From a virus: 59,564 bases of DNA. Both the position numbers and the translations under genes were made by a program. The notes beneath the pieces were generated by a model. That model saw only the letters and a program-made list of their open reading frames with translations. It had not been told where the DNA came from and made no database searches. The DNA lies in the IMG/VR virus record IMGVR_UViG_3300032313_000319, positions 1-59,564 of that record. One strand, written 5' to 3'. Positions 3,379-50,766 of this stretch are shown piece by piece; the first letter of the stretch is position 1, and each line of letters begins with the position of its first letter.

Positions 3379-4020
3379 TTACACCTCTTCCAGCGTTAAA
3401 GAGATATTCCAGAAGTCATAATTGCTTCCTCCACGCTTGACTACAGAATATGAAAAGTCAGCAATATACATCTCGATAAGCTGGTTGTATTGTCCCAATT
3501 GGCTATAGGCACTATCATTGTCACCAAATACTGAACGCTTATCATAAGCAAGGTAAACCCAGAAAGGTCCTTTGTGATTTTCGTACCAGTCTAGAACGTC
3601 AACTCCTCCAGCACCACCATCTGTGGTATATTCAAGACCTCGATTATTGTAGTATTCAGACTTTCCCGTCTCTTGATTAAAGTCTGGTCTTAGATAGTAT
3701 GATCTAGACGGAAGCATGTCCCACGATGTTGAAATGGTTAGCTTATCTGCAATGTGGTAAGAACGCATCCTACCATTTACCATACGCTTTCTATTTTCAA
3801 TTCTTGTTGGCTTAAAATCTATAGCTCCACGATTATCGTCAGAAAGAATTAGGAATTGATCAAACAGTGCCTCGTTGGTTTCAGATCCTGGGTCTGATCC
3901 AACCTCAAACCCATTCGGAACGTACAAGCCATCAACCAGGGTACCAGAATTATCTGACCACATCATTGCCTGTGGACGCTGATACTTCTTGCGACCAACC
4001 ATGTATGATTCACTAGCCAT
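3379..4020 (-). CDS. tail tip protein, distal-tail (Dit)-like candidate
   Basis: This 213-residue protein starts at the ATG that overlaps the tape measure stop (TAATG at 4018-4022), so translation is probably coupled. Its place directly after the tape measure and before a >1100-residue minor tail protein is where siphophages encode the distal tail protein. It is rich in Tyr, Trp and Asp and looks like a compact beta protein. No family motif is recognised with certainty; Dit is inferred from gene order. Confidence 0.7.
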   Translation of the reverse strand: MASESYMVGRKKYQRPQAMMWSDNSGTLVDGLYVPNGFEVGSDPGSETNEALFDQFLILSDDNRGAIDFKPTRIENRKRMVNGRMRSYHIADKLTISTSWDMLPSRSYYLRPDFNQETGKSEYYNNRGLEYTTDGGAGGVDVLDWYENHKGPFWVYLAYDKRSVFGDNDSAYSQLGQYNQLIEMYIADFSYSVVKRGGSNYDFWNISLTLEEV

Positions 4021-7000
4021 TAGAATCTATTCCCCTTGATACGCTGAGAGTCAATCTGCTTAATCTTTCCAATCACGGAAGATGCAATCTGATCTGCATT
4101 AGCATTACTCTGTACATTAATATTTACTTCATAATTATACACTGAATCGCTACTGTATGTGCCAGAATTTATTGCCTTCAGTCTGTCAACTCCAAAGTTG
4201 TTTACAGCATTCCTACGAACAACAAATTCTCCTGGGGTAAGCATTGAAGGAACTACATCAGTTCCCAAGGAGCTGAATAGCCCTCCATTAGCCATATACT
4301 TAACCATTCCACCACGTGCAAGCTTAATTCCCTTAGCCTGAAGTGTTGATGCAGCTGTATTTCTTGTGAGTGAGGCTGGAACGCTATTGTTTGGAGACCT
4401 TGTTCCCAAACCAAGAGCAGAAGCAACTGTTGGAGTTGAGATAGCCTTTTGCAACAGGTTTGCAAACTTATTAACTTCGCCTGCGGATGAAGATGTGTTA
4501 TTTGCAAGCGAACCAGCCTTAGCAAGATTATCGGACGTTACCTTAGATGCTGCCAACAGGTTGTTAAACCTATTTGCCTCTCCAGCTGAAGACGAAGTCT
4601 GAACGATTAAAGACCCTGCCTTTTCTAGAGTAGCCTTAGTCTTTAGGGTGCTATCAATAATTGCAGAGTCCTGTTTCTTAATAAATCCAGAAATGCTCAT
4701 TCCAGAAGCCTTTAGGGCAGCTGCTGACTTTTGTGCATCTGTTACAGCTTCTTCATCACCATTGCCACCAGCACCATTACCACCATTTCCACCAGATGTA
4801 GTGGAGGTTGTGGTAGTTGTAGTAGTTGTAGCAGCTCCTCCAGTACCAAGCTCCTCGTCAACAGTTCTCTTCAGGATTGTTAGAATTGCTGTTTTGTCTT
4901 CAATGTTATTCCAGTCATCAAGGAGGTCAGCAATAAGGCCTGCCTGGTATTCCATTGCTGTCATCTCTTCTGGAGTTAACCTTAGCTTTGCCTCATTTAC
5001 TTTGGCTGCAAGAACATCCCATCTCAAAATTTGAGCATTGATGGACTCTAGTCTGACTGCCTTATCGTATTCGGCCTCTCTGATTGATTCACGAGCTACT
5101 TCAAGTCTTTCTTCTTCAATTACAAAGATATCTTTCTTTAGCTTTTTAACTTCGTCTTCAATTTGCTTTCTAGATCTGCCATCTTTAGATCTCAAGTTAG
5201 CTAGCTGCTGCTCCTTTGATAGCTCAAGAAGGTCTCCCTGCTTTGCAATAGAGTCTTGTGCAGACTGAGCTCGCATATCTTGAGCTGCTTTTGCAGCTGC
5301 AGCAATGTCACCTTGAGAAAGTGCATCTGCTAGAGTTAGCTGGTTTTTCTGCTGTCTTGCAATAACATCATTAGCCTTAGCTACATCATCAAGAGCCTTC
5401 TTACGCTTGTCATACTCTTCGTTTATGACACCCTCTTGCTCTTCAATACCAGTTAGCTGTGCTTCAAGATCATCTATCTTATACTGAATTCCTGCTATTT
5501 CATTTTCTGCATCACGAATGACTGCATTTTCATCAGCTGTTTGTACCTGGAAGTCTACTTCAATAACCTGCTTCTGAGCTTCTAGATAACCTACAACCTT
5601 GTCATAACGCTTCTGGAACTCTTCAGCAGCACCCTCCTTTGTAGCAAATGCGATATCTATGTCGATTTTTGCCATTTGCTTAAGTTGAGAAAGTCTGTTC
5701 AAAACTTCCTTTGCATTGATGCTACCATCCTTTAGGTCATCAGCAAGAGTATTAGTAAACTCTTGATCGGAAAGAACTTCATCAATTTGTTCTGCTGTGT
5801 ACCCCAAAGTAGTTAATGCATTTGCTACTGTAGCTTGTGCACGTTTTTCTGCAATCTCAACCTTACCGCCACGAAGTAGGTCTTGCAGCTCCTTCTTGGA
5901 AAGAAGTCTCTGAGTTTCCTTAATTCTATTAATTAGGTCAGCCCACTGCTTTGTTCCAACCTTGGTGGTAGCCAAAGCTGCTGCTAGGATTGGATCTTCT
6001 GCAGCCTTCATGGCATCAGCAGTATCAAAACCTGCCTTACGCAATTTATTAAATGCAGCATTAGATTCTAGAATTTCTTTTCTTTGCTCTTGTAGCGACT
6101 CTATTGCTTGCTGTAGAGGACTCTTGTCTCCACCACCACCTGGACCAGTTGGGGTAGTCTTTTCTAGTTTTAGAACCTGGTCAATTAGGTTCTTCATGTT
6201 GTTCCACTCAGTAGCAGCTACTCCAGCACCAGTTGCTGCCTTGATACCTGCAGCCAATCCAGCATCTCCTGCTAGGTCAAATGCCTGTGCTGCAGTGTAT
6301 CCTTGCTGAATTAGATAGTCGTAAGCGTACTGCTGGTTCTCTAGCTGAACAACCCTATCTGCAAGAGCAACATTAGCGGAAGCGATTTGCTCATTAATTA
6401 GAGCTTCTTCTTCTATCTTCTTATTAACCTTTTCTTGAGCAATAGCTTGCTCTTCAACTTGCTTCTTAAGCTTTGTACGAGTTCTAAGGGCAAGTTGAGC
6501 AGCCTTTGCACTCTTGTCTGCATTCTTAAGTGCATTCTTATCTGTTTCTGGAATCTGTATGCCAGCAGCATCTGCTTGCAACAGTAGCAGTTGATCGCCA
6601 ACCGCAGGAATCTCCTTCATGAGATCCTCTACTCCAAGCTTTTTATACAGGTCTGGCAAAACCAAGTCTAGCTGAGTCTCGTCTAGCCCCTTTAGGGTTC
6701 CTATAACTCCTTCAAGACCAACACCAAAATCTTTTGCAGTTATTAGATTATTTGCAAGACCGTCCTTCAGTGCCTGCAATGATGATGCAGCTGTTCCAGC
6801 AAAAGTAGAAGCAGCTGCCTTAGCATCGTCAGACAAAGAGTCTACTGTTTTAACTACTGACCTTACACCCAAAACCTCTTTTTGCTCATAGCCACCCTTT
6901 TTAAATCCAGCTTCAAATGAGTCTTGGAACAACTTTGAGGAATCCTGTGCTGCCTTTACAATTTGATCCTTGCCGACCTTGGTAAAATCAATGTTTGCAA

Positions 7001-10000
7001 AGTCAAACGATAGACCTGTCTGTCCTGCTTCTTGTGCAATAGCCCTTACGTATGCATCCACCTGGTCTTGAGCTGCTCCTGCTGCAAATAGCTGGTTTGA
7101 AACGGCAGCTAGGGCTGCCTCAGCTTGACCCTTAGTAGCATTCTTAATTGCATTAATTTGATCTGCAAAACCTGTCTTAAATTCTTCGCTAGAACGAAGC
7201 TCATTAATCTTCGATGCCTCATCTGCACCACGAGCTGCAGCGGTTCCCTGCTCAATATTTTGACCAAAAGCAGTTGTCTTAGGGGTAAAGCCCAGAAGCT
7301 CTCCAGCCTTCTTCATCTTTTCTGCGGTCATGAACGCAGTATCGCCTAGACCACTAATCTTCTTCTTCTGATCTTCTTGTGCCTTTATAATAAGTCCAAC
7401 TACTCCTGCGAGTATTGTGAAGCCTGTAATAATTATTCCAATTGGACCAAGGAATCTAAGAACCATCTTACCCAGGTTAAGTAGTCCACCAGAAAACGCT
7501 GCACTGTTTACCATTGCTGCTTTGGTTTGAACATTTTGAATTGCTAGACCTGAAATCAAAGCCCTTCTCTGAATAAGCTCAAGCATCTTGGACTGAGTAA
7601 GTAGTTGTGTTATTTGCATTAAACCAAACAGCAGTCCAGAGAACTCAAATATTTTTTGAGAGATCTGACCAATAGATCCTCCAGCCATAACCCCAACACC
7701 AGCTAGAGATGTTAGTGCAAAAGTTCCCTGCATAATGGTGCTGTTTAGCTTGTCTAGCCTAGACTGCGAAGACTTTATAGAAGTAGTCTGCTCTTCAGTA
7801 GCTAGGGTAGCCTGTGCTGTAGCCTGAGCTCTTTCTCTTTCCTCTTTTCCAAAATCTGTTCCAGGAGCTGATGCTCTACGAGAACCTCGCCTGGTTTGTG
7901 TTTGCGATGCAGTGTCTGCCTGATAGGCAGCAATAGCTCCAGGGTCTGTTGTTACTCTTCTTCTTCCAACCTTGACTGCACCGCTGGCATTTCTGGTTCC
8001 TGCTGCAGTAGCTTCAGCAAGATCTTCTCCAGCTCTCATGGCATCGTCAGAGCCTTCACGAACACCAGCAGCTACACTTTGAGAAATGGCTTCGTACTCT
8101 GCAGATGGGGAGTTAATCCCCAGACCATCCGACATTCCCATAAATAATATTTGTGCTAGCTCTGTTGCAAATTGATTTGCTCGCTCGTTAGCTTTAACCA
8201 GAATTGCTGCAAAATCCTTATTTTTTCTAAGATCTCTATATGGAACACCTTCTGCACCAGTCATCATGCTGACGGATTGTGGAGTAAATGAGGTTGCCCC
8301 TGGGGCAGCACTTCCAGTAGCTTGAATTGCAAGTCCTCCAGGCAATGTTGGTCTGCGATCTTTAGCATCTGCCACTGTTCTATATTGCGACTTTGCTTTT
8401 TCAAGTGCCGTCTTCGTAGCACCCTCAAACAGTTCGCCTATTGCACCCTCTACAATCTGATATAACGCTGGGTCTCCCACAGCCTCTTCTCCAGCTTTTC
8501 TATATCCCTCAATTATTAGCTGAATAAACTTTTGAGCTTCTGGATCATTTGGATCCACTCCGTAGTTTTGACTCAGGGCAGCGAGGAACTCATCTCCTCC
8601 AGTAGACTCTAGGTAGTCTGCTGCTTCATTGCCAGTCATCTTTCCAGTATTCAGTGCTCTAGGTGCAAGAGCAACTAGCTGACTAAAGGCTTTTATTGGT
8701 CCAGTGGCCTCTTTCAACATCTTAGCAACTATACTGGTGCCAAAGCCTAGTCGGGCCATCTCTTCACCTAGGTAATGGGCCTGCTCCACTGTCAAATCTA
8801 TTGTTGGGCCTAGGTGTGTGAGGTTTACACCAGTAAGTGCGGATGCATCTCCACTTACAGAATCTGGGCCACGGAATGCAACTGTAGTTCTAGCAATTCC
8901 AACTATTCTTTCAAACTGTGGTACCATTTCAGCAAGTTGTCTTTGCAGACCAGTAGCGGTAAGCCTCTTTCCAGACTCAGCAATACTTTCCATTGCATCG
9001 GCTGCTAGCCCTAGGATTCCTGGGATTGCCTTGTCGAGCTGTACATATGGTGCCAGTGCAGCATCTCTAGACATTGGAGCCCTAGGAACGTTTGACTTTG
9101 CAAATCCAGGAATATCTCCATAAATCATTTGCTGAATTATTCCAGAATACTTTTTTGCCTTGTCTGCTGGAATCACTGCCTCTCCAGGACTTAGCATAGC
9201 TGGCATAACATCTCCAGCACCCTTTGGTCCTGGAACACTCACGACCCCCTCAGCATATCCTGGAATTGCTGCTCCAGTCTGCTTTGGCTTAGATGGCTTA
9301 ACTGCAGAGTGAACAGCATGGAACCTAGACCAGTCAACAGACAGACCTTGACGCAATCTGCCGATCATGTCTTGGTAAGCCTTGGCTTCTTGTGGATTAG
9401 ATAGCTTAAATCCTGCAACAGTTTGCTCTAGCAAAGGAAGAACTCTCTGAATTTCTCCAATCATTCTCTGGTGATACTGCTGAGGAGTTAGGTTTTGCAT
9501 TAGTGCAAGTGTAGACTCAGCAAATGCCCTCTTTGCCCCACCCTTGATACCAAGGAGGTTGATCATTGCCTGGTCTTCCATAGATGGAAGGCTTTCTGCA
9601 TAGTCTCTTAGACCAGATGCCCTAGAGAATACACCTGCAGGTCCTACGTCTGCTACGGTGTCACCAAATACATTGGAAGCTGACAAATCTTTATCAACAC
9701 GAAGTAGTGATGCAACCAGCTGCTTGAAGTACTGGTCTTCATTAAACATAGCCATTGGGTCATTATTAATAAAGCTTGCATCAAGTGCTGACTCTAGTGC
9801 TAGGAATCTACGTTGCCTTGTTGGATCTTGTGGGTCACGAATAACAACTATTCTCTGCTCTGGTGCCTTTAGACCATGAGCCTTGCGAGCAATTTCTGTT
9901 GCTCTCATTTCTGCAACAGCAGCCTTCTCATCCATTACTGGCTTTACAAAAACCTTTTGTCCATCTGGTCCCATGTAAACTCCACCAAGACCAAAGATTG

Positions 10001-12305
10001 GGAAGCTGTGACCAGAAGTTGGGGATAGCTGGTGTCCATAGTTTGTAGGTGGAACATCTCGGTAGCTGCTTTGTAAGAACATTTCGTAAATTTGTTGTGC
10101 AGCATCTCTGTTCTTTTGAGTGCTCTTTCCAGATCTAGGCATTCCAAGCATTACACCTTGGCTAAATCCAGGAAGGTTTCCAGCAATCATACCCTGAATA
10201 ATTGGAGCATACTTCTTTGCTGCATCGGCTGGGATGACAGCCTCTCCTGGAGATAGGACTGCTGGAACAATGTCGCCAGCACCCTTAGGCCCAGGAACAG
10301 AAACAATACCAGAAGCAAGCTTTAGGCCAGCTCCTTGAGCAATACGCCTTCCAGTGTCAAACCTTTGCTGCTCATTAAACGCCTGACGATATACGTCTCC
10401 TAGCCTTTGTACGGCACCTGCCTCAGTAGAGAATACTTGGATAAGGTTCTGATGCACTTGTTCTAGAGAAGCTGCTACAGCTGCTGCATTTAGCTGCTCA
10501 GTAGTCATGTAGTCTAGCTGTTCACCAAGTATTGTTGACTGTTTTCCAGTCTTCATAAATAGTTCACGAACAAAAACAAATCCCTTAATAATGTTAGCAA
10601 TACCGTTGGCTAGTAGACCAAATGTCATAATTGCAATAGGACCAATTGCACCAAACAAGACTGTCAATCCTGTTATAAATGACTTAGCACCATCGCTTAG
10701 CCCATTAAACTTTTCAATAATGCCAGTGGCAAATTCAATAATTGGGGTAAGTAGTTTTAGGAACTGCTCTCCCACTGGAGCAATAGCAAGCTGGAATTCT
10801 TCAACAGCTTTTTTAAATCTAAATGTCGTAGACTCTTCTACGCTTTTCAACTCTTTATTTGATAGCTGAGCTAGCTCTTGTGTAGTAGCATTTGTTAGTT
10901 CTAGAACTCGCTGTGCCTGAGTACCGTCCTGAATTACGTTCTGGAACAGTGTAGATAGACGAGCAAACTGGAACTTTCCAAACAACTGTTCAATTGCCTG
11001 AGCACGTTGAGAAGGATCTAGCTTGTCTAGTGCTTCTGCGAAGTCAACTACTAGTCCCTTTACGTTACCACGGTTAGCAGCATTAATCTCTTCAAGATTG
11101 ATTCCAAATACCTTAAGCATTGTGGATGCCTGAGCAGTTGGGTTAATGATGGATGCAAGACCTGACTTTAGTGCGTTAGCACCTTCAGAAGCATTAATTC
11201 CACCTTCCTTCATAGCTGTCAGGAAGAAGGCTAGGTCTTCTACGTCTCCACCAAGCTGCTGGATAACTGGACCTGCCTTTGGAACAGCAATGGTCAAGTC
11301 TTCAATAGATGTTACAGTTTGGTTTTCAACTGCGTTAAGGAAGTCAATCTTGCTTGCCAACTTTTCTGTTGCAATTCCGAAAGCATTTGTAAGAGAGATA
11401 GTAGTCTCAAGAGCCTGAGCCTGTTCTACGTTACCAAGCACGGCTAATCTATTAGCTTCTGTTACCTGGTCAAGAAGCTCAGTTCCAGTCTTACCCATAG
11501 CAGCTGCATCAGCAGCAAGGCCAAGTGTCTTTTCAACAGCAACACCATATTTGGTAAACTCTTTTCCAAGCTCCTTAAGAGTATCAAGCATTTCATTTGC
11601 TTCATCTGGTGTTGTGAATAGATCACCATAAACACGCTTAAATCTAATTGCTTGCTGCTCAAGTTCCATGAATGTCTTGGAAGCCATGTTTCCAAAGATA
11701 GACAATGGAATGGTAAAACCAACCATAAGCTGACGACCAGCCCACTGGGTATTCTTACCAAAGTTTAGAAGGTTTGTAGATCCCTGCTTAAGTAGCTGAT
11801 TAAATATCTGCTGCTTTTGTGCAGTCATTGCTGTCTGAGTGCCAAGGGCTTCCATGTCAAGACGGAGTGGTCTTACAGCAATAGACTTTAGTGCACCATT
11901 AGCATCACGGCCAAGTGAGATGTACTGTGTCTGAAGATCCTTTACTCGCTCACGAGCAACCTTCTCAATAGTGTTAAACTCAGAACGGAAAAGCCCACCG
12001 AAAGTCTTTGTTTGAGAACTAGCATATCTGAAGTACTCTCCCATGGAGAGCTTGTTCTTCTCTAGTGCTCTGGTAAAAGAATCCGATGAGCTTTGGATGG
12101 TCTTTATTGAGGCTGACCATTGGCCTGTAGCATTTAGGTCGTCTAGAAGACCCCGTCTTAGCTTTCTAGCAGATTCTGCATTGGCAGCAGAAGACGAGGA
12201 CATCTGACGTTGGAAGGCTGATATCTGAGACTGCAGCATCTTGATAGACGCTATAGCATCGGAGGTATCTACTCCAAATCTAATATTTGATTCTATATCA
12301 GCCAT
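4020..12305 (-). CDS. tail tape measure protein with embedded kinase-like domain
   Basis: At 2761 residues this is by far the largest gene. Residues about 230-420 match the TP901-type tape measure core (ALETTISLTNAFGIATEKL, KEGGINASEGANALKSG). Hydrophobic, membrane-compatible segments lie near residues 542-580 and 1612-1640; long Ala/Gln/Lys-rich coils and a Thr8/Gly-Asn linker follow. A motif of the form PAMLSPGEAVIPAD occurs near residues 688 and 1040, with a variant (SMLTPGEFVV) near 2690. Between the first two copies, about residues 725-985, is a globular insert with Gly-rich loop, VFVKP (K788), DLSASN (D873, N878) and ADVG (D886), an arrangement like atypical or HipA/PI3K-type kinases (inference). 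At about 1.5 angstrom per residue the tail would be near 400 nm. RBS GGAG precedes the ATG. Confidence 0.96.
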   Translation of the reverse strand: MADIESNIRFGVDTSDAIASIKMLQSQISAFQRQMSSSSAANAESARKLRRGLLDDLNATGQWSASIKTIQSSSDSFTRALEKNKLSMGEYFRYASSQTKTFGGLFRSEFNTIEKVARERVKDLQTQYISLGRDANGALKSIAVRPLRLDMEALGTQTAMTAQKQQIFNQLLKQGSTNLLNFGKNTQWAGRQLMVGFTIPLSIFGNMASKTFMELEQQAIRFKRVYGDLFTTPDEANEMLDTLKELGKEFTKYGVAVEKTLGLAADAAAMGKTGTELLDQVTEANRLAVLGNVEQAQALETTISLTNAFGIATEKLASKIDFLNAVENQTVTSIEDLTIAVPKAGPVIQQLGGDVEDLAFFLTAMKEGGINASEGANALKSGLASIINPTAQASTMLKVFGINLEEINAANRGNVKGLVVDFAEALDKLDPSQRAQAIEQLFGKFQFARLSTLFQNVIQDGTQAQRVLELTNATTQELAQLSNKELKSVEESTTFRFKKAVEEFQLAIAPVGEQFLKLLTPIIEFATGIIEKFNGLSDGAKSFITGLTVLFGAIGPIAIMTFGLLANGIANIIKGFVFVRELFMKTGKQSTILGEQLDYMTTEQLNAAAVAASLEQVHQNLIQVFSTEAGAVQRLGDVYRQAFNEQQRFDTGRRIAQGAGLKLASGIVSVPGPKGAGDIVPAVLSPGEAVIPADAAKKYAPIIQGMIAGNLPGFSQGVMLGMPRSGKSTQKNRDAAQQIYEMFLQSSYRDVPPTNYGHQLSPTSGHSFPIFGLGGVYMGPDGQKVFVKPVMDEKAAVAEMRATEIARKAHGLKAPEQRIVVIRDPQDPTRQRRFLALESALDASFINNDPMAMFNEDQYFKQLVASLLRVDKDLSASNVFGDTVADVGPAGVFSRASGLRDYAESLPSMEDQAMINLLGIKGGAKRAFAESTLALMQNLTPQQYHQRMIGEIQRVLPLLEQTVAGFKLSNPQEAKAYQDMIGRLRQGLSVDWSRFHAVHSAVKPSKPKQTGAAIPGYAEGVVSVPGPKGAGDVMPAMLSPGEAVIPADKAKKYSGIIQQMIYGDIPGFAKSNVPRAPMSRDAALAPYVQLDKAIPGILGLAADAMESIAESGKRLTATGLQRQLAEMVPQFERIVGIARTTVAFRGPDSVSGDASALTGVNLTHLGPTIDLTVEQAHYLGEEMARLGFGTSIVAKMLKEATGPIKAFSQLVALAPRALNTGKMTGNEAADYLESTGGDEFLAALSQNYGVDPNDPEAQKFIQLIIEGYRKAGEEAVGDPALYQIVEGAIGELFEGATKTALEKAKSQYRTVADAKDRRPTLPGGLAIQATGSAAPGATSFTPQSVSMMTGAEGVPYRDLRKNKDFAAILVKANERANQFATELAQILFMGMSDGLGINSPSAEYEAISQSVAAGVREGSDDAMRAGEDLAEATAAGTRNASGAVKVGRRRVTTDPGAIAAYQADTASQTQTRRGSRRASAPGTDFGKEERERAQATAQATLATEEQTTSIKSSQSRLDKLNSTIMQGTFALTSLAGVGVMAGGSIGQISQKIFEFSGLLFGLMQITQLLTQSKMLELIQRRALISGLAIQNVQTKAAMVNSAAFSGGLLNLGKMVLRFLGPIGIIITGFTILAGVVGLIIKAQEDQKKKISGLGDTAFMTAEKMKKAGELLGFTPKTTAFGQNIEQGTAAARGADEASKINELRSSEEFKTGFADQINAIKNATKGQAEAALAAVSNQLFAAGAAQDQVDAYVRAIAQEAGQTGLSFDFANIDFTKVGKDQIVKAAQDSSKLFQDSFEAGFKKGGYEQKEVLGVRSVVKTVDSLSDDAKAAASTFAGTAASSLQALKDGLANNLITAKDFGVGLEGVIGTLKGLDETQLDLVLPDLYKKLGVEDLMKEIPAVGDQLLLLQADAAGIQIPETDKNALKNADKSAKAAQLALRTRTKLKKQVEEQAIAQEKVNKKIEEEALINEQIASANVALADRVVQLENQQYAYDYLIQQGYTAAQAFDLAGDAGLAAGIKAATGAGVAATEWNNMKNLIDQVLKLEKTTPTGPGGGGDKSPLQQAIESLQEQRKEILESNAAFNKLRKAGFDTADAMKAAEDPILAAALATTKVGTKQWADLINRIKETQRLLSKKELQDLLRGGKVEIAEKRAQATVANALTTLGYTAEQIDEVLSDQEFTNTLADDLKDGSINAKEVLNRLSQLKQMAKIDIDIAFATKEGAAEEFQKRYDKVVGYLEAQKQVIEVDFQVQTADENAVIRDAENEIAGIQYKIDDLEAQLTGIEEQEGVINEEYDKRKKALDDVAKANDVIARQQKNQLTLADALSQGDIAAAAKAAQDMRAQSAQDSIAKQGDLLELSKEQQLANLRSKDGRSRKQIEDEVKKLKKDIFVIEEERLEVARESIREAEYDKAVRLESINAQILRWDVLAAKVNEAKLRLTPEEMTAMEYQAGLIADLLDDWNNIEDKTAILTILKRTVDEELGTGGAATTTTTTTTSTTSGGNGGNGAGGNGDEEAVTDAQKSAAALKASGMSISGFIKKQDSAIIDSTLKTKATLEKAGSLIVQTSSSAGEANRFNNLLAASKVTSDNLAKAGSLANNTSSSAGEVNKFANLLQKAISTPTVASALGLGTRSPNNSVPASLTRNTAASTLQAKGIKLARGGMVKYMANGGLFSSLGTDVVPSMLTPGEFVVRRNAVNNFGVDRLKAINSGTYSSDSVYNYEVNINVQSNANADQIASSVIGKIKQIDSQRIKGNRF

Positions 12306-12326: not shown

Positions 12327-12653
12327 CTAGCTGGTAGGCAAGGCTCCCATCAGTGCAGTATCTCCAAGGTTAATACCCGATGCCTCTTCTACGATCTTGT
12401 ACACTGTAGGAAGGTCCAAGCTTTCCTCTAGCTTTTCCAAATCTTCTGCAAGATCTGGCTTATACTGCTTCATTGCAATCTGGACACACTCCATGAGTAC
12501 ATCCATTGCCTTGTCATTATCATCAGCAACTGTAGCAATAACTGCAAACTTCTTCATAAAGCTACGTAATAGAGAGATCTTAAGTGGTCTTACGGTGATC
12601 TCTGTTCCGTCGATTAGCTTGATAACTTTTTCTTCATTGACTGTTACAGCCAT
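12327..12653 (-). CDS. tail assembly chaperone, short form (G-like)
   Basis: The ATG at 12653 is preceded by AGGAGG, so it is preferred over an upstream in-frame ATG at 12671. The 108-residue product aligns along its whole length with the N-terminal half of the neighbouring 231-residue protein (LIDGTEITVRPLKISLLRSF versus LIDNTELFITPLKIKHLRDF, and a shared MECVQIAMKQY / LECTRIAMRQY block). It sits directly upstream of the tape measure. It is therefore read as the short tail assembly chaperone, encoded by its own gene with its own -10 box (12686-12691). Confidence 0.8.
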   Translation of the reverse strand: MAVTVNEEKVIKLIDGTEITVRPLKISLLRSFMKKFAVIATVADDNDKAMDVLMECVQIAMKQYKPDLAEDLEKLEESLDLPTVYKIVEEASGINLGDTALMGALPTS

Positions 12654-12685
12654 GTTGTGCCTCCTGAGCATTATTTATAAGATTT

Positions 12686-12701: not shown

Positions 12702-13397
12702 TTATGATTTTTGGGTTAAATCTTCATAGCCAAGCCCCATACCAATACCAAATCCAGCCTTCTGAGCATTGTATCCTTGCAGTGCGGTGATGTCGTTAGA
12801 ATTAGATGTTTTACCACCACTAAAAAACTTTGCCTTCATCTTTTCCCAGGCATTGCCTTCGTCTTTTCCTGTTTGCTTATCAAGATCTACTCCTTGCATT
12901 GCTGCTAAAAACTTCTTTTCTTTATAGTCAGATTCTCTCTTTGCATTTAGAGTGGTTGTTAGCTCTGGCATAGACAGAGATGTTTCTAACTCATCATAAT
13001 CTTTCCAAATACCCAGCAAAAATACTTCGGACTCTAGCGATACAAGATCCATTTCACTCCACTTAGGAGAACTTTCTTTGGCTTGGTCTGATACCTTTTC
13101 TTCAGACTCTCCATTAATCTTGATACCTGCAGCAATTTCAAGAACCTTGTACATTGTGCTTATATCTACATTGTCTTCTACGTCTTCTATTGTTTTAAGT
13201 TCTGGGTAATACTGACGCATAGCAATTCTTGTACACTCTAAAAGGATGTCTAGAGTTTCGTCTTCATTCTGCACACCCTCCATCTTTTCAAAGGTCGTCA
13301 TGAAGTCACGAAGGTGTTTTATTTTTAGAGGAGTTATGAACAACTCGGTATTGTCAATCAGTCTTACCGTTGCTGATTCATAAACTTTATTAGGCAT
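12702..13397 (-). CDS. tail assembly chaperone, long form (GT-like)
   Basis: This 231-residue protein has an N-terminal chaperone domain (about 1-105) homologous to the next gene, followed by a charged C-terminal extension with FLLGIWKDYDELETSLSMPE and a coiled, Lys-rich stretch. That is the domain order of the long frameshift product of tail chaperone genes, but here it is one continuous reading frame. The start is an ATG 6 nt after a TATACT box, which predicts a leaderless transcript. Confidence 0.8.
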   Translation of the reverse strand: MPNKVYESATVRLIDNTELFITPLKIKHLRDFMTTFEKMEGVQNEDETLDILLECTRIAMRQYYPELKTIEDVEDNVDISTMYKVLEIAAGIKINGESEEKVSDQAKESSPKWSEMDLVSLESEVFLLGIWKDYDELETSLSMPELTTTLNAKRESDYKEKKFLAAMQGVDLDKQTGKDEGNAWEKMKAKFFSGGKTSNSNDITALQGYNAQKAGFGIGMGLGYEDLTQKS

Positions 13398-21902: not shown

Positions 21903-24900
21903 CTATACGGCTTGATAAGTATTAGTCTTCCATGTAACGTTGTTGTAGAACTTGTAAGCATAATCTCCAAACTTTGTTTCAACAGAATCATCTACAATTA
22001 TCTTATTAGTTCCTGTATATACCTTGTAGATGTCAGATGGATCTACGCCATAATAGCTAGTATTCGATATAACTAAAACCTCTTGCCAAAGGTATGGAAT
22101 TGCATTCCAATAGTTCCAGTCTAATGTTAGAGAGCCAGCCTTTTCTACCTTAAACCAAGGTCTTTCTACAACAGTCTGAACCTCTTGTAGGTTTGTTGAC
22201 TTATAGTGAGAAATGTTATTAAACGTCATTGGCCCGTTTAGTCTTAGGGCACCCTCGTAAGAATTAAAGTCTTGGGTGTTGGCAAATCTAATTCCAAGCA
22301 TTGCCCATTCTTGAACAGTTATAGTTGGATCTTTAACAAGCTTTCCATTAAGATAGAAAGACAAACCATTCTCCAATTGTCCTCTAGAATTGATTGCATA
22401 AATTTTTGCACGTTTACCCTGTGGATGAGTTGCTACCATAAAGAATTTTATATATGAGTTTTTGCTTTGAATTTCAAATATTTGTGTTGGAGCATATGGG
22501 AAAAAGTCTTGATCAAACTTAAGTGACATTTGCATAGCAATAACCTTGTAGCTATCTGCCCTAGACTGATTGATTGGAATAGATATTCCCCGATTTACCA
22601 TTGGGTCATACTGCCCCTTAATTGAGATACCACTATCTTTAGTTAGATATAGGTATGGTGTGCTACCCTTATAAATCGTAAATGGATTTTTTTGCTTATA
22701 CGTAAAATAAAATCCGTCTTTTCGATATGGGAAAATGTCATTTCCAAACCTAGTACCAATTGGGGTAGGTGCTGTTTCAGAAAGAGCTAGTGAAGCGTAC
22801 TCCATAGATCTAATTAAAATTGGAGAGTCTTCAATATTTACAGTTTGAGCATGGATGTGTGCCACTATAGCAATATCCTCAAATGATACTGAGGCTGGTG
22901 GATAAATAATCATATTATCTACCACCTCATACTTAGTATTTAGCCACCCATCTCCTGGGATCAGAATTCCATCTTTTGGAGCAAGTTCAGTGTTTAAAAA
23001 ATACTCAGACGGCTTATTTGCTCCTTCGGCCAATAGCTGAAAGCTTACATAAGTTCTAACAACAGATCCAGAGGTATCGTATCTATATGTATTTTGAGAT
23101 CTATTTTTAAGATCTAAATAATTGTCAAAGCCCGTAAATAAGTGATTGTCTAAAGACTCATATGACCTTTGCAGCGGATTTGAGTATTCTGATTGAAGCT
23201 CACCATAAGTCCAAGACCCAGATGTTTCTTCCTGAATAAATCTTGATGGGGCTGGATAGTCAATGTTAAATTGAACAAAGTCTAGATCTAGCCTATCATC
23301 ACCCCTGGCATCTCTTACCTGCTTAGATAAAGCAGATAGTGGAACATAGTCTTGCCAATATGAATCTGCACCAATCCTAATTCCAAATCCAGACATAGAG
23401 TCTACCAGAGAAAGATGATATGTAGCGATATGTCCGCTTACAGCAAGCTGTGCATATTGACCAAGAGTTCCTCCATCATATAAGAACTGATAGATTTGAG
23501 TATTATATAACTCAGCATCAGCTATATCTGGACCAATATTTCCATCAACAAACTCATCAGAGAAGCCAACGCCGTCCTGACCAAAAATTGATTCTATCTT
23601 TGCTATGTTCTTTGAAGAACACACCCCAATACTATAAATCTTTCCAGTAAATGTTTGTGAAAAATCTTTTCTTCCGCCAACGTATAACGACATTGTGGAG
23701 AGGTTGCCAAAAAATTGTGCCACCTTACCACCATAATAATTTGAGAACTTTTGTAGGTCAATTCCAACAATAAACTGTTCTCCAAGGAAATATCGTTCTT
23801 TTGAAGCAACAACAGTTTGAACATTTCCATCAAAAACAATATAGTCAATTCTGTCACTACGAAGAACTACCTCAAAGTATCCACCAGATACTTTATTTTC
23901 TACTAAAAAGATTGTTTGTGGACTATCCGCAACATCTACTTCTTGGCACGATATATATATTGCTTTAGCTGTCTCTGATGCTATAGATAGATTTTCAACA
24001 TAAATATATCCATCAGTTTCAGACCACTGTGTTCCTGGCTTTAAAGATATTGCCATATCACTTGCTGAATAGGTTTTTAGATCAGCAATCCATTGATCGT
24101 ATGTCTTATCACTAAATAAGACCGTAGGTTGATTATACTGTGGAAATGAAAGAGCATTTCCATTTATCCTTACATTATCATAGGCACCCTGTGACCACTT
24201 TGCAATATTAGGATAATTATAGTTTTTAGAGTATTTAGAAAATGGATAGTCAATAAAGACTGAGCTTCCGCTATAAGCATTATTTATATTTTCTGGAAAT
24301 TCAACACCCTGACCATATACAAATCTACGCTTTGCAACTTGATTTGGAACCTTATATCCATAAGTTGCTACAGCATCTATTTCAAGAGGAAATACATCTT
24401 CGTATGCCCAAAAACCAAGCCAGTCATTATCTAAAACCAATTGACCATTTTGTTGAGTTATAGGTGGAAGGTTAACATCAGCTGCAATGATAATTTTTTC
24501 TCCAACTTGCTCCCCATTAATTAGCAATGATATGGATGAGCTAGAATATCTAATATGAACAAGCATTGGCCTAGACCATTGTCCTACATAATGTTTGATA
24601 ACGTGGTCACCAATTTTTAATGATATAAATGGTCCATTAACATATATGCCATCTGTACCACGAACATTTCCAAATATTCTTTTTTCTTCAGAAGAATTAC
24701 AGTTAGCCCTTAACCAAAACTCAAAAGTATAATCCTTATATTTTCCAGACTCGTTTAAGAAGCCTAAGCCAGGCAACAGGATAGCTGGGGCATTTCCGAT
24801 CTGCTGTAGAGTAGTTGTGTTATTTGCACCATAAACCATTGGTACACCATAGTTTTTTGCAGATAGGGCATTTCTTCTAACTAAGTAGTATCCATTTAAA

Positions 24901-25586
24901 TCTTGCAAACCATATGCAGAAGCTTCAATTGCAGTAATTCCAGAAATTGCAAGAATGTTTGATGGCACAGACACTGGCGTTGACCCAAGAGATGTCGAAT
25001 TAAACTCTTCTGACCACTGACCAAGAGAAACGCCATTAGCTAGAAATGAATAGTTTTCCAGATCATCTCCCTCAAAGAATCTAGCCTTAATTACAACTCT
25101 AAAAGTAGAGTTTTGTCTTGGTGGGGCAAATGTTTCTGAAACAAATATCCAATTATTATAAATTTCTGTAGAAAAAAACTTTAAGTCTTGTATTGTTGAT
25201 CCGCTAACATCATCGTAATATTCATATCCAATATCGAATCCAGAGATATACGCAGTATTGGAATATAGGAAAGCTCCAATACTAATTGTTGCTAAGGATT
25301 CATTCAGACTTTGTAGCGAAACAATGTCTGGACTTACACAAGAAACGGAAAACTCTCTTGTATCTGCAGATGAAGCTAGAACTTTTGAAACAAAGCTATT
25401 TGGGAATGGCTCATCTAATATAGATGGAATGTCTTCAGCAGATCCATTATCTATTTCCCACAAAGTAAAATCTCTATTTTGCTCAGATATCAGAGATACG
25501 TAGTCAGCAACATCATCCAGTGGCCACAGGGCAATAGGATGCTCAGAAAATACCTTTTCTGCATAAAGATTAGATGGATTAGACAT
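21903..25586 (-). CDS. large LamG/concanavalin-like virion surface protein
   Basis: The 1227-residue protein opens with a motif typical of phage lectin-like tail proteins (FSEHPIALWPLDDVADYVSL). It has at least two LamG-like units, about 275-420 (YTFEFWLRANCNSSEEKR, MLVHIRYSSSSISLLING) and 560-680 (GYFEVVLRSDRIDYIVFDG, LSTMSLYVGGR). LamG domains bind carbohydrate or protein ligands, so a role in host recognition is likely. GGTGGTG precedes the ATG. Its position between the oxygenase cassette and the portal, away from the other tail genes, is unusual. Confidence 0.8.
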   Translation of the reverse strand: MSNPSNLYAEKVFSEHPIALWPLDDVADYVSLISEQNRDFTLWEIDNGSAEDIPSILDEPFPNSFVSKVLASSADTREFSVSCVSPDIVSLQSLNESLATISIGAFLYSNTAYISGFDIGYEYYDDVSGSTIQDLKFFSTEIYNNWIFVSETFAPPRQNSTFRVVIKARFFEGDDLENYSFLANGVSLGQWSEEFNSTSLGSTPVSVPSNILAISGITAIEASAYGLQDLNGYYLVRRNALSAKNYGVPMVYGANNTTTLQQIGNAPAILLPGLGFLNESGKYKDYTFEFWLRANCNSSEEKRIFGNVRGTDGIYVNGPFISLKIGDHVIKHYVGQWSRPMLVHIRYSSSSISLLINGEQVGEKIIIAADVNLPPITQQNGQLVLDNDWLGFWAYEDVFPLEIDAVATYGYKVPNQVAKRRFVYGQGVEFPENINNAYSGSSVFIDYPFSKYSKNYNYPNIAKWSQGAYDNVRINGNALSFPQYNQPTVLFSDKTYDQWIADLKTYSASDMAISLKPGTQWSETDGYIYVENLSIASETAKAIYISCQEVDVADSPQTIFLVENKVSGGYFEVVLRSDRIDYIVFDGNVQTVVASKERYFLGEQFIVGIDLQKFSNYYGGKVAQFFGNLSTMSLYVGGRKDFSQTFTGKIYSIGVCSSKNIAKIESIFGQDGVGFSDEFVDGNIGPDIADAELYNTQIYQFLYDGGTLGQYAQLAVSGHIATYHLSLVDSMSGFGIRIGADSYWQDYVPLSALSKQVRDARGDDRLDLDFVQFNIDYPAPSRFIQEETSGSWTYGELQSEYSNPLQRSYESLDNHLFTGFDNYLDLKNRSQNTYRYDTSGSVVRTYVSFQLLAEGANKPSEYFLNTELAPKDGILIPGDGWLNTKYEVVDNMIIYPPASVSFEDIAIVAHIHAQTVNIEDSPILIRSMEYASLALSETAPTPIGTRFGNDIFPYRKDGFYFTYKQKNPFTIYKGSTPYLYLTKDSGISIKGQYDPMVNRGISIPINQSRADSYKVIAMQMSLKFDQDFFPYAPTQIFEIQSKNSYIKFFMVATHPQGKRAKIYAINSRGQLENGLSFYLNGKLVKDPTITVQEWAMLGIRFANTQDFNSYEGALRLNGPMTFNNISHYKSTNLQEVQTVVERPWFKVEKAGSLTLDWNYWNAIPYLWQEVLVISNTSYYGVDPSDIYKVYTGTNKIIVDDSVETKFGDYAYKFYNNVTWKTNTYQAV

Positions 25587-29710: not shown

Positions 29711-30451
29711 TTAGTTGCCAGTTTCCTCATAGAATTCTGGTTTGTGGTACTTTTCGGAATAGTCAAGCATAGTAACGATTGAATACTTTACCCCAGAGTG
29801 TACTGGCATAGCACGGTGTGGATACATAAAGTTAGATGGGAATAGGTATAAATCTCCAGCCTTAGGCTTAACACTTAGATTCTGAAGTCTAAAGAATAGC
29901 TCCCCACCTTCATAATCATCATTTGGATAAGATACAGCTGACAGAACACAGTTATAAGAGTACCCATTGTCGTGGTGCTCCTGGAAGTGCTGTCCTTCAC
30001 CATACCTAACAAAATTCATAGCTTCCCAATATCTTAGCTCTCCGATATTGTGCATCTTGCAATAGTGCTTTACTGCTTGTAGTTGTCTAAAATAAACATC
30101 ATCCCACAGCTGACGTAGCTTCTCTGCAGCATCTCCAGTGTGCTCAGCGATATCTGACTTCTTATACTTAAAATCCTTGCAATCACGATACTCTGGAATC
30201 TTCATTCCATATCCCACCATAGCGTCAGCATATTCATAGGCATTGTCTGGATCTTCTAGAACATCTTCAAGTCTTTGAATAATATTCATACTAGTTGGAA
30301 GGACATCACGATAAACCAAGATACCGTGCCCAAAGTCCTCAATAGATGACCAAGTAATTTCATCAATTCTGTAAAAGTCCTGAATTCTTTTTTGCAAATC
30401 TTCTTGCTTTTGGTTATTTTCTTGCTCGTTAAATTCTTGCTGGTTTGACAA
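29711..30451 (-). CDS. 2OG-Fe(II) oxygenase, prolyl 4-hydroxylase-like (5)
   Basis: The 246-residue protein has H159-x-D161, H212 and Lys222, with SYPNDDYEGGELFFRLQ. The start is a TTG with AAGGAG 5 nt upstream. A Gln/Glu-rich N-terminal leader of about 25 residues precedes the fold. More similar to paralogs 6 and 8 (FPSNFMYPHRA versus FPSTYIYEHAS) than to 1-4. Confidence 0.9.
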   Translation of the reverse strand: MSNQQEFNEQENNQKQEDLQKRIQDFYRIDEITWSSIEDFGHGILVYRDVLPTSMNIIQRLEDVLEDPDNAYEYADAMVGYGMKIPEYRDCKDFKYKKSDIAEHTGDAAEKLRQLWDDVYFRQLQAVKHYCKMHNIGELRYWEAMNFVRYGEGQHFQEHHDNGYSYNCVLSAVSYPNDDYEGGELFFRLQNLSVKPKAGDLYLFPSNFMYPHRAMPVHSGVKYSIVTMLDYSEKYHKPEFYEETGN

Positions 30452-41401: not shown

Positions 41402-42154
41402 TTAGCATATCCACATACCATCTATACACTCACATTCTAAGAATGGCCTATTTCCAATACATCCAGATGGTGTAGGTGTAGGAGTTGGAGTCGGAGTTGG
41501 TGTAGGAGTTGGTGTAGGCGTAGGAGTCGGTGTTGGTGTGGGCGTTGGTGTTGGAGTAGGTGACCCAGTATATTCTCCATAATTTACAGTTATACTTCCA
41601 GTTGCATTTGAATATCCAGACTTGCTAACCGTTACTTCAATTGTTACATCTGTATTTGGGGTTCCTTCCCTATAGTACTCTGGATAAGTGCTTTCAAAGC
41701 TGGTCCATTGTGGTGAAAATGTGACTCCTCCAAGGGCATCATAGGTATTATAATTAGTCAAATATACATTAACATACCTTTTTCCTCCAGCGGCATTTCC
41801 TGTTGATTCAAGCTGGAATGTTGGCGTTGGTAGGCTAGGTGCAGGAGTAGGAGTAGGGGTTGGTGTTGGTGTAGGGGTTGGTGTAGGTGTTGGTGTAGGG
41901 GTAGGGGTAACCACATAATTATACAAACTAAAAGCAACAGTTGTTTCATAGTCAACAAGCGTATTTGCTGATGGATTCTGAGAAGCAACAAGATTATCTA
42001 AAGACTGATTTGATGTATTAACATCAGGACCTAGTGAATATTCCAATCCAGAAGATTGTAGTAAAGATATAGCAGCAGATGACGATAGCCCAGAGATATC
42101 TGGAACCAGGACCATTCCTTTTGAAGATGCATAGTAGCCAAATGCATTTACCAT
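41402..42154 (-). CDS. PASTA-domain virion protein with two Pro-Thr linkers
   Basis: Residues about 15-80 look like a PASTA domain (MVLVPDISGLSSSAAISLLQ), a fold that binds peptidoglycan stems. A (PT)n linker, an Ig-like beta domain (about 115-195, KRYVNVYLTNYNT, ITVNYGEY), a second longer (PT)n linker and a C-terminal Cys-rich tip (CIGNRPFLECECIDGMWIC) follow. The long PT rods and terminal module suggest a host-binding fibre. The prolines are possible hydroxylation targets. Confidence 0.75.
   Translation of the reverse strand: MVNAFGYYASSKGMVLVPDISGLSSSAAISLLQSSGLEYSLGPDVNTSNQSLDNLVASQNPSANTLVDYETTVAFSLYNYVVTPTPTPTPTPTPTPTPTPTPTPAPSLPTPTFQLESTGNAAGGKRYVNVYLTNYNTYDALGGVTFSPQWTSFESTYPEYYREGTPNTDVTIEVTVSKSGYSNATGSITVNYGEYTGSPTPTPTPTPTPTPTPTPTPTPTPTPTPTPTPSGCIGNRPFLECECIDGMWIC
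41470..41560. repeat. hexanucleotide repeat coding (Pro-Thr)n, linker 2
   Basis: GTAGGA/GTTGGT-type hexamers encode alternating Pro and Thr on the minus strand. Confidence 0.85.
41835..41910. repeat. hexanucleotide repeat coding (Pro-Thr)n, linker 1
   Basis: GGTGTAGGGGTTGGT-type units encode the first Pro-Thr linker of the same protein. Confidence 0.85.
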
Positions 42155-46990: not shown

Positions 46991-47564
46991 GCCATGGAAC
47001 TTTGAAGATTTTGGCGAGGTAGAGGTATCAAGCATTCAAGATGAAGTCATTTCGTATTATAACGAATGGCTAGTTGATACTACTAGGCAAGACACATTCC
47101 AGACACATAAAGATACCTTCGCAATTCAGCTAACAGCCTTAGACTATGCTCATGGAATTGGCATGCCAGGAGATTGCATTACGACTAAAAAGCTTAATAA
47201 CGAATCTGCAAAGATTGAGCTTGATCAACTCATAAATAAAGTTGAGCAACTTGCTGCAGGAAAATTAATTCGTGCAGAGTTTATTAGCCTAAAGCCAAAA
47301 AGTCGAATCCGTCCACATAAGGATAGATCGGATCTGCTGTATTTGTCTAGAAGATTCCATGTTCCAATCAAGACAAATCCATATGTTACATTTTCTGCAG
47401 GAGCAGATGTTAGGCACCTATACGCTGGAAGACTGTATGAACTAAATAATATAAACTACCATGGTGTAAAGAATGATGGTAACGAAAATAGAATCCATCT
47501 GATTCTTGATGTGCTACCAGAACAATATCTCGAAGGGATAAGGTTTATCGATGAGACTGAATGA
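46965..47564 (+). CDS. aspartyl/asparaginyl hydroxylase-like 2OG oxygenase (9)
   Basis: The 199-residue protein fits the Asp/Asn beta-hydroxylase family: IRPHKDRSD (H118-x-D120), RRFHVPIKTNPYVTF, then LNNINYHGVKNDGNENRIHL (distal H166, R176 at +10). The start is the ATG at 46965 with GGAGG 3 nt upstream, inside the end of the sulfotransferase gene; starts further down are possible. It is a second hydroxylase type besides the eight prolyl-type genes. Confidence 0.8.
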   Translation: MSTLRNKREPWNFEDFGEVEVSSIQDEVISYYNEWLVDTTRQDTFQTHKDTFAIQLTALDYAHGIGMPGDCITTKKLNNESAKIELDQLINKVEQLAAGKLIRAEFISLKPKSRIRPHKDRSDLLYLSRRFHVPIKTNPYVTFSAGADVRHLYAGRLYELNNINYHGVKNDGNENRIHLILDVLPEQYLEGIRFIDETE

Positions 47565-47790
47565 TGGTAAGTACATCTGCCCATTCTGTGTAAGCAGCTG
47601 GGACTGCGATGGGCCACACATTGAAGAAAAGGATCTAAATAGCTTTTACGAGCGACTAGGCTATATTAGAGAAGATCTTACGTTACTGGCACTTGAAGAA
47701 ATAGACAAGTATGAAGCTTCGGCAAAAATAGATCTTTCGCTTTTAAAACGAGCGGTATTTGAGTCGCTCATAAAGCGTTCGCTAAATTAA
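47551..47790 (+). CDS. small zinc-finger-like protein
   Basis: A 79-residue protein with an N-terminal CPFCVSSWDCDG zinc-knuckle and helical remainder (LTLLALEEIDKYEASAKIDL). It overlaps the hydroxylase gene by 14 nt. Function unknown. Confidence 0.65.
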   Translation: MRLNDGKYICPFCVSSWDCDGPHIEEKDLNSFYERLGYIREDLTLLALEEIDKYEASAKIDLSLLKRAVFESLIKRSLN

Positions 47791-47868
47791 TTCGGCGGTA
47801 TATAGAGATACCCTGCACCCTCCCCACGTCCCGTGCCCTATGTGCAAGTATCCTAAATATGCCAGGTA

Positions 47869-47895
47869 TTGACAAACCTCACCTTATGATATAAT
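47869..47895 (+). promoter_or_regulatory. leaderless promoter for DUF6171-like gene
   Basis: TTGACA (47869) and TATAAT (47890-47895) are separated by 15 nt. The ATG follows 6 nt after the -10. Confidence 0.6.
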
Positions 47896-47901
47896 ATATC
47901 C

Positions 47902-48099
47902 ATGGGAGACGTAACATTCTTTGATCTATTTGATCCAAACCAACCTAGGTCTGATAAAGAGCTAATCGAATCCCGACTAGCCATATGCAATACATGCGAA
48001 TGGTTTGACAAACGACTTGTCAAATGTCGCAAATGTGGTTGCTTTATGAAACTAAAAAGTACGCTTAAACAAGCGGAGTGTCCGATTGGAAAATGGTAA
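47902..48099 (+). CDS. DUF6171-like Cys4 zinc-ribbon protein (copy 2)
   Basis: The 65-residue protein has ICNTCEWF, CRKCGCFMKLKSTLK and CPIGKW, paralogous to the minus-strand copy at 40918-41154. Translated from a leaderless start and coupled by TAATG to the next gene. Confidence 0.8.
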   Translation: MGDVTFFDLFDPNQPRSDKELIESRLAICNTCEWFDKRLVKCRKCGCFMKLKSTLKQAECPIGKW

Positions 48100-48293
48100 T
48101 GGATAAGTATTTGATTGTAGCTAAGATGGTAGCTATTGCAGAAAAGAATAATCAGGAAGCTATGCAGTCAGCTGGTATGGACCCTACTGCTATTATGGCT
48201 ATGGCTGATCAGGTAAGACCACAGTTGTTCAAGATTCAGGAAGAGATCCTGGATACTTTGACCAATGAGAATATTGTTAGTATTATCGATTAG
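48099..48293 (+). CDS. small helical hypothetical protein
   Basis: The start is the ATG overlapping the upstream stop (TAATG). The 64-residue product is helical and Met/Ala-rich (MVAIAEKNNQEAMQSAGMDP). No recognised family. Confidence 0.6.
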   Translation: MDKYLIVAKMVAIAEKNNQEAMQSAGMDPTAIMAMADQVRPQLFKIQEEILDTLTNENIVSIID

Positions 48294-48298
48294 TCAGG

Positions 48299-48346
48299 AT
48301 GACTTTTACGATTCAAGAAGACTTGATTCCCCCGAAAATTAGTTAG
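48299..48346 (+). CDS. possible 15-residue peptide
   Basis: A short frame (MTFTIQEDLIPPKIS) between two small genes, with AGG upstream. Too short for composition to help; may be chance. Confidence 0.2.
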   Translation: MTFTIQEDLIPPKIS

Positions 48347-48355
48347 GAGACTATT

Positions 48356-48544
48356 ATGGAATTTAAATACCAGGCTAAAGCAGACTTTGCACTAGACTTT
48401 TATAAAGAAAATGGACAGACTGTTACATTTGATACAGAGTTGTTTAATGGAACTTTGATTATTGAAGCACCAGATGAGGATACCGCCAACAAGATCAGAA
48501 TGACTATTACTGATATCCGTATGTGGGAAAAGGTTACAGACTAA
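48356..48544 (+). CDS. small hypothetical protein
   Basis: A 62-residue acidic protein with TAGGAG 7 nt before the ATG. It has alternating strands (GTLIIEAPDEDTANKIRMTI) suggestive of a ferredoxin-like mini-fold. Function unknown. Confidence 0.65.
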   Translation: MEFKYQAKADFALDFYKENGQTVTFDTELFNGTLIIEAPDEDTANKIRMTITDIRMWEKVTD

Positions 48545-48613
48545 TTACTCTGGTTGTGTCTTGCATGGACACTTGTCATTGCAGCCACATGTCATTTTGT
48601 GTATGATCTTCAT
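48545..48613 (-). CDS. 22-residue Cys-rich microprotein
   Basis: A minus-strand frame begins 6 nt after a TACAAT box and codes MKIIHK then MTCGCNDKCPCK and TQPE. Four Cys in CxC...CxC spacing suggest metal binding. The convergent plus-strand gene ends directly at its stop. Support is the promoter spacing and the Cys pattern; expression not proven. Confidence 0.5.
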   Translation of the reverse strand: MKIIHKMTCGCNDKCPCKTQPE

Positions 48614-48619
48614 GGTTTT

Positions 48620-48625
48620 ATTGTA
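48620..48625 (-). promoter_or_regulatory. leaderless -10 for Cys-rich microprotein
   Basis: TACAAT lies 6 nt before the ATG at 48613. Confidence 0.45.
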
Positions 48626-48639
48626 GCATACCCTTTTCG

Positions 48640-48826
48640 TTACCAAAACGTTATCTTATATTGACCAAATCTGAAAAAATTTTCAAATTGACAAAAATCT
48701 GAATATTTTGTAAAGATGTACGATACATCCTCACACACAGAAAATAACCAGGATTAGTCCGCACACACCCGTACGACCCTAATGTTATAAATTTGTTACC
48801 TACTATGCCGTGTCTGACTTGCATAA
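48640..48826. promoter_or_regulatory. gene-free divergence region
   Basis: About 190 nt without a credible gene. It holds two direct TTGAC-A/C-AAATCTGAA repeats (about 48659 and 48687). The second reads TTGACA with TAAAGA 17 nt on, a possible rightward promoter. It separates the leftward microprotein from the rightward small-gene arm. Confidence 0.4.
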
Positions 48827-48848
48827 TGTCTGCCAATACTGATAGAGT
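48827..48848 (+). promoter_or_regulatory. TGTC-box promoter 1 (weak)
   Basis: TGTCTG, 10 nt, TAGAGT. It lacks the ACCCC spacer but keeps the spacing and the AGAAAGAAGG ribosome site of this class. Confidence 0.45.
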
Positions 48849-48874
48849 ATGACTATACAGAAAGAAGGAAACAA

Positions 48875-49045
48875 ATGCTAGTAACAATCAGAAACAACGA
48901 CAACACTGAAACCACCTTTGGCTTCGACCCTGAGCACAAGGCAGAGGCTATTGGCTTCTACACCAAGTTGTATTGGAACAGTGCCATTCAGGGATACCGC
49001 ATTCAGTTTGCAGATGGCTCTATCTTCAACATTGGAGCCAACTAA
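48875..49045 (+). CDS. 56-residue hypothetical protein
   Basis: The ATG lies behind AGAAAGAAGG. The product (MLVTIRNNDNTETTFGFDPE..., YRIQFADGSIFNIGAN) is a small beta protein. It heads a four-gene run coupled by TAATG/TAAATG junctions. Confidence 0.6.
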   Translation: MLVTIRNNDNTETTFGFDPEHKAEAIGFYTKLYWNSAIQGYRIQFADGSIFNIGAN

Positions 49046-49116
49046 TGACTACTGAAGAACTAGAATACCTAATTGAACTAATTGACATAATGCTAATGGA
49101 TGAGGAGACTAACTAA
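49045..49116 (+). CDS. 23-residue acidic helical peptide
   Basis: It starts at a TAATG overlap (MTTEELEYLIELIDIMLMDE). A paralog is at 51301-51411 (SISELEELIYKIDLMLSED). Coupling at both ends plus the paralog supports a real gene. Confidence 0.55.
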   Translation: MTTEELEYLIELIDIMLMDEETN

Positions 49117-49304: not shown

Positions 49305-49336
49305 ATACGGCGTGTCGCTTGACATCTACCCTGGAA

Positions 49337-50763: not shown

Positions 50764-50766
50764 TGT

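Follow-up and report, generated by a model that had tools for sequence, protein, structure and literature searches.

Does the tape-measure protein (TMP) encoded at this locus carry a kinase, and if so, where would that kinase act? An earlier note on the window (the whole 59,564-nucleotide stretch of viral DNA analysed here) had claimed that a kinase-like domain interrupts the tape between two copies of a motif, and had suggested that it could be delivered into the host at injection. The ORF in question matches PF10145 (PhageMin_Tail, E = 2.2e-27) in Pfam and phrog_10030 (tail length tape measure protein, E = 3.2e-97) in PHROGs, and genes for the portal, the head protease and head proteins lie upstream of it on the same strand. 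These family matches, together with its position among tail and virion genes, identify the ORF as a siphophage tape-measure protein. The features discussed below are listed in Table 1.

Table 1. Features of the tape-measure gene in window coordinates, with residue numbers (aa) of the encoded protein.
Feature	Window position	Strand	Basis or remark
Tape-measure protein (TMP) ORF	4020..12305	(-)	2761 aa, no Cys
Conserved TMP N-terminal core, aa 1-655	10341..12305	(-)	Alignment A6, scan and survey
First cassette-boundary motif, aa 668-694 (PAVLSPGEAVIPAD; VSVPGPKGAGDIVPAVLSPGEAVIPAD)	10224..10304	(-)	Related TMPs lose identity here
Atypical-kinase-like domain, aa 721-1010	9276..10145	(-)	Alignment A5 conservation, AlphaFold model, structure matches
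Glycine-rich loop TSGHSFPIFGLGGVY, aa 763-777	9975..10019	(-)	G765, S767 and G775 invariant
K788 in VFVKP, strand β3, putative ATP-anchoring Lys	9942..9944	(-)	76/76; β3 is model residues 64-70
E799 in helix αC, Lys-Glu pair	9909..9911	(-)	76/76; helix is model residues 73-88
Putative catalytic loop RVDKDLSASN, aa 869-878	9672..9701	(-)	R869, D871, D873, L874 and N878 invariant
Putative metal-binding D886-V-G888, DFG equivalent	9642..9650	(-)	D and G 76/76
Second cassette-boundary motif, aa 1022-1048 (PAMLSPGEAVIPAD; VSVPGPKGAGDVMPAMLSPGEAVIPAD)	9162..9242	(-)	Beyond it, identity to relative L002 drops from 0.92 to 0.21
Second variable segment, aa ~1060-1400	8106..9128	(-)	Replaced in closest relatives; no Pfam match
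C-terminal TMP motif GTDVVPSMLTPGEFVV, aa ~2676-2698	4212..4280	(-)	Sequence motif

Several other features of the window were recorded. Two ORFs directly upstream of the TMP gene (12327-12671 and 12702-13397, both (-)) match phrog_10504; because both match the same family, they suggest duplicated tail-assembly chaperone-like genes and not a single frameshifted pair. A 1227-aa ORF directly upstream of the portal gene (21903-25586 (-)), examined as a possible second injected enzyme, had no match in Pfam or PHROGs. A 2OG-Fe(II) oxygenase domain (PF13640, E = 7.4e-15) is encoded amid structural and tail genes at 29711-30451 (-), and a PASTA domain (PF03793) lies within a 250-aa phage protein at 41402-42154 (-). 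The 4.7 kb at 47564-52287 contains only ORFs of fewer than 100 aa and no tRNA.

The kinase-like domain is compact and lies between two copies of SVPGPKGAGDxxPAxLSPGEAVIPAD. The ORF, the residue numbers and the order of motifs were as the earlier note had claimed, and each named motif was confirmed: VFVKP (K788), EMRATEIA within AEMRATEIA (E799), DLSASN (D873 and N878) and ADVG (D886). Two details held only in part. The domain had been placed at residues ~725-985 (window 9350-10145), but its end is set near residue 1010 because conserved columns extend to W992 and H999, and the first copy of the flanking motif reads PAV, not PAM.

We aligned 76 non-redundant domain sequences with 37-94% identity to that of the window (alignment A5), in which 39 of 290 columns were invariant. 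The invariant set includes G765, S767, G775, K788, E799, S839, R869, D871, D873, L874, N878, D886, G888, G891 and H999, and E838 was kept in 75 of the 76 sequences. Thus the β3 Lys, the αC Glu, the catalytic Asp and Asn and the metal-binding Asp of atypical kinases are all present and invariant (76/76). The proposal that K788, D873, N878 and D886 would be conserved therefore held; the probability that four random positions would all be invariant is 2.8e-4 (39 invariant columns of 290), and because these residues had been named from one sequence, the agreement is not a chance match.

An AlphaFold model built from a 76-sequence input had a pLDDT of 92.7 and a pTM of 0.91. In the model, an N-lobe (β1, residues 38-42; β2, 55-58; β3; helix αC; β4; β5) ends in an LES hinge after β5 and is followed by an αE helix (136-149), the catalytic loop, a β7-β8 hairpin, the DVG motif and a helical C-lobe. 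The closest structure by VIA-align was CotH (Z = 11.9, 221 residues aligned, 4.1 Å), followed by CtkA (10.6), PI4KII-beta (9.9), Fam20C (8.9), VPS34 (8.6) and HipA (8.4). Nearly all of the 50 listed structural matches were kinases, with CotH, CtkA and PI4KII leading and HipA and VPS34 included. Unmatched models typically reach a Z of 7-8, so that the top few matches stand above the background and the lower ones are not clear of it alone. A model built from only seven sequences was poor (pLDDT 62.9), but atypical kinases still made up nearly all of its best structural matches. Foldseek alone against the PDB gave low TM-scores and no match with E below 0.001 (best E = 0.015). Because Foldseek was weak without re-alignment, the claim of a kinase fold rests on VIA-align, motif geometry and conservation. 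On this basis, the domain very likely has the two-lobe fold of the atypical-kinase superfamily (CotH/HipA/PI4K/Fam20C), as predicted by the model, and the structure-prediction check that could have returned an unrelated fold supported the original claim. Compared with the CotH/CtkA-HipA/PI4KII kinases (PDB 5jda, 3akk, 8a5x, 3tpb), the domain shares the predicted two-lobe fold and the order of catalytic Lys, Glu, Asp, Asn and Asp; however, identity is only 9-12%, there is no Pfam match, and the window domain sits inside a tape-measure protein.

Sequence searches did not place the domain in a known family. None of the Pfam, PHROGs and PDB sequence searches recognised it; the PDB search returned nothing relevant, its sole match being a lectin neck repeat. 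Membership of the HipA family was rejected by the lack of a HipA_C (PF07804) match and by an hhalign probability of 0.4% against E. coli HipA. The CotH family was likewise rejected for want of a Pfam match, even though CotH is the closest structure, as was the PI3/PI4-kinase family for want of a PI3_PI4_kinase match. No sequence profile linked the domain to any named kinase family. The designation "HipA/PI3K-type" in the earlier note therefore held for the superfamily and failed for the family; we regard the domain as a distinct phage family that shares this fold and that, by sequence, belongs to none of the HipA, CotH and PI3K families. The open-access literature searched yielded no previous description of a TMP-borne kinase.

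A search of a viral structure library gave best matches that include the HHTV-1 protein R4T6E8, a portal-annotated protein (A0A6J5S481), a PI3/4K-annotated phage protein (A0A6J5MJB0) and an ADP-ribosyltransferase-annotated mycobacteriophage protein. We take R4T6E8 to be HHTV-1 gp13 from its length of 1100 aa. In this haloarchaeal tailed virus, gp13 (L242:9436-12738) contains a kinase-like catalytic loop, GNRDIHGGN...PVDNG. By profile, gp13 aligns with the window domain over the catalytic loop (GNRDIHGGN over RxDKDLxxxN, E = 0.0028), with a probability of only 11%; this is an independent sequence hint of a kinase, and gp13 is apparently an unrecognised virion kinase. Unlike the TMP-borne window domain, gp13 is encoded in a head and packaging cluster near a MuF-like gene, and the HHTV-1 TMP is gp35.

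We considered whether the domain is a pseudokinase or a structural spacer, that is, a fold recruited for tape length or for binding a nucleotide or partner without phosphotransfer. In its favour, TMP lengths vary widely (1711-4268 aa among those surveyed) and kinase-bearing TMPs are longer (median 2956 aa, vs 2569 aa without the kinase). Against it, every position needed for phosphotransfer, beyond those for nucleotide binding, is invariant. Between the window and its two nearest full-length relatives, dN/dS (Nei-Gojobori) was 0.065-0.068 for the domain, as low as the 0.057-0.071 of the TMP core, and 0.16-0.56 in later TMP segments. Across comparisons, the domain values were 0.06-0.09, near the level of the core, but synonymous sites approach saturation in remoter pairs and we lean on the two nearest comparisons only. 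The domain is thus under strong purifying selection, and a spacer would not preserve D873, N878 and D886, which makes this alternative very unlikely. While there are no biochemical data, we infer that the domain is likely to be catalytically active in ATP-dependent phosphotransfer.

Scans of viral contigs, with single sequences and then profiles, expanded the set of relatives from 6 to 36 to 185, so that the domain occurs in at least 185 viral-contig stretches; a scan seeded from a distant branch returned 76 loci that partly overlap earlier finds. Profile examination of 160 loci placed the domain almost always inside a long tape-measure-type ORF. The TMP N-terminus was present in all but five of those long ORFs, and the exceptions mostly start at a contig end; one of them, L080, has a TMP reading frame that is interrupted upstream of the domain. 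Relatives also carry the domain at TMP residues ~980, ~1280 and ~1916. Two scans of 84,980 species genomes found no relative, and a cellular origin of the domain is therefore unsupported. Searches of isolated phages with four different family members as queries gave no credible match (best E = 0.2).

Although the domain itself is conserved, its presence in the tape is not. The N-terminal 655 residues, common to TMPs with and without the kinase, recruited 79 TMPs, of which 28 contain the kinase and 42 complete ones lack it; the sampling favours kinase-bearing relatives, and these numbers should not be read as a frequency. Across 84 TMPs, the segments that directly follow the first boundary motif form at least 16 groups without a mutual blastp link, the kinase being the largest (28 of 84), but deeper homology could merge some of these groups. 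The nearest pairs with and without the kinase share ~84-90% identity over the common N-terminus and diverge shortly past the motif. Identities of the N-terminus and of the kinase are nearly decoupled (overall rho 0.18); in the pair L159/L032, the N-termini are 93.5% identical and the kinases 40%. Identity between the window and L002 is 92-98% as far as the end of the kinase, drops to 21-24% over residues 1101-1400 and recovers later. It is very likely, then, that the kinase is an accessory, exchangeable cassette occupying a slot that the GAGDxxPAxLSPGEAVIPA motif delimits. A constant carrier with unrelated exchangeable modules, as in polymorphic-toxin-like effectors, is met here by at least 16 slot families behind one N-terminal core. 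The second variable segment of the window is unrelated (~22% identity) to its counterpart in relatives that are 92-98% identical in the N-terminus and kinase. Several slot segments contain an H[IL]G[GP] motif, which reads THLGP in the window's second variable segment.

Exchange of the cassette bears on a second alternative, in which an active kinase does its work in the cell that produces the phage, while tails are assembled or late in infection (by autophosphorylation or by modifying chaperones or tail proteins), without being delivered. ATP is available in the cytosol where the TMP is synthesised, and the closest structural match is CotH, which phosphorylates coat proteins of its own assembly. 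However, 42 complete TMPs share the N-terminal core but lack the kinase, which argues against a required assembly step, as do swaps with unrelated segments and with a HAD phosphatase. We consider this alternative unlikely.

At least 13 TMPs have a HAD acid-phosphatase-like domain after the kinase (14 locus hits, two of which are the same record). One copy spans residues 1360-1485 of the TMP at L064:1705-11403 (+) (PF03767, E = 3.5e-16); others accompany the kinase in the TMPs of L062, L059, L079, L068, L052, L066, L051, L194 and L212. The DIDDT motif is intact in the L063/L064 copy. A single TMP matches CTP_transf_like (E = 5.2e-9). A weak GNAT match was seen in a single TMP, e.g. L216 (residues 1263-1304; members of A7/A8). 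It is possible that the CTP_transf_like and GNAT matches represent further enzyme cargo.

A third alternative concerns the substrate and not delivery, and overlaps our preferred reading: the kinase may act on a lipid, nucleotide, sugar or nucleic acid end, perhaps in sequence with the HAD phosphatase. The lipid kinases PI4KII and VPS34 are among the structural matches, and the HAD domain weakly resembles HAD_PNKP. On the other hand, CotH and CtkA, which match best, phosphorylate proteins, and most kinase-bearing TMPs lack the HAD domain, and a non-protein substrate thus appears unlikely.

The reading that we favour, with moderate confidence, is that an ATP-dependent atypical kinase is an exchangeable payload of the TMP, ejected with the tape to act in the host cytosol; delivery, folding and substrate are all inferred. 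The TMP would be loaded in the tail lumen with the kinase segment extended or partly unfolded, and the segment would be expelled with the tape at DNA ejection. From the position of the domain near the TMP N-terminus, we infer that it would leave late. Once in the host cytosol, which supplies ATP, it would fold and, early in infection, phosphorylate some target of the host, most probably a protein, in the service of host takeover or of blunting defence. Tapes are known to fill the tail lumen as ~25 Å bundles and to be expelled, with refolding suggested (PMC11329794, PMC10038345), and T5 pb2 shows that they can carry enzymes (PMC10038345). Cysteine is absent from all 24,163 residues of the 85 kinase copies, as would suit a segment that has to unfold and fold again, but low cysteine content is shared by other structural proteins of the window.

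Comparison with known systems supports parts of this reading. Effectors related to TMPs are active inside target cells in injection systems (PMC11126660, PMC13277306). The Streptomyces contractile injection effectors Tme and Sle1 resemble the window TMP in having a tape-like carrier and an exchangeable functional domain, delivered through a tail-like tube (by inference in the window phage); however, they belong to bacterial injection systems and carry a C-terminal endonuclease or other domain, not a kinase between repeats. Polyvalent-protein kinases (PMC5512222) are likewise found in large multidomain phage proteins thought to be injected, but they are Ser/Thr/Tyr-type kinases that have lost the C-terminal subdomain. 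The window domain resembles atypical kinases and retains C-terminal helices (model residues 189-280), so that membership of that group was rejected. Like the window TMP, T5 pb2 has an enzyme in a tape that is expelled at infection, but that enzyme is a cell-wall hydrolase for entry. A kinase that uses ATP implies a cytosolic target, unlike the muralytic domains of TMPs. While delivery at injection remains an inference and has not been shown, on balance we lean towards the domain being a delivered cytosolic effector.

Tape enzymes are mainly known as wall hydrolases that aid entry. A conserved, ATP-using kinase in the tape that is exchanged among phages implies that long-tailed phages may deliver cytosol-acting effectors with the tape, which would be a natural equivalent, in phages, of the TMP-derived effectors recently described in contractile injection systems. 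The question of whether folded enzymes pass a siphophage tail is thereby made testable, and the combination of a boundary motif and a variable segment offers a search rule for more cargo. A bolder reading, which we hold no more firmly than its opposite, is that the tape measure in a large group of environmental phages serves as a modular carrier of effectors. Enzymes (by inference an atypical kinase, a HAD phosphatase and perhaps also a nucleotidyltransferase and an acetyltransferase) would be exchanged at repeated GAGDxVPAxLSPGEAVIPA boundaries behind a constant tail-building N-terminus and delivered with the genome. If so, the tape would itself amount to a system for injecting proteins.
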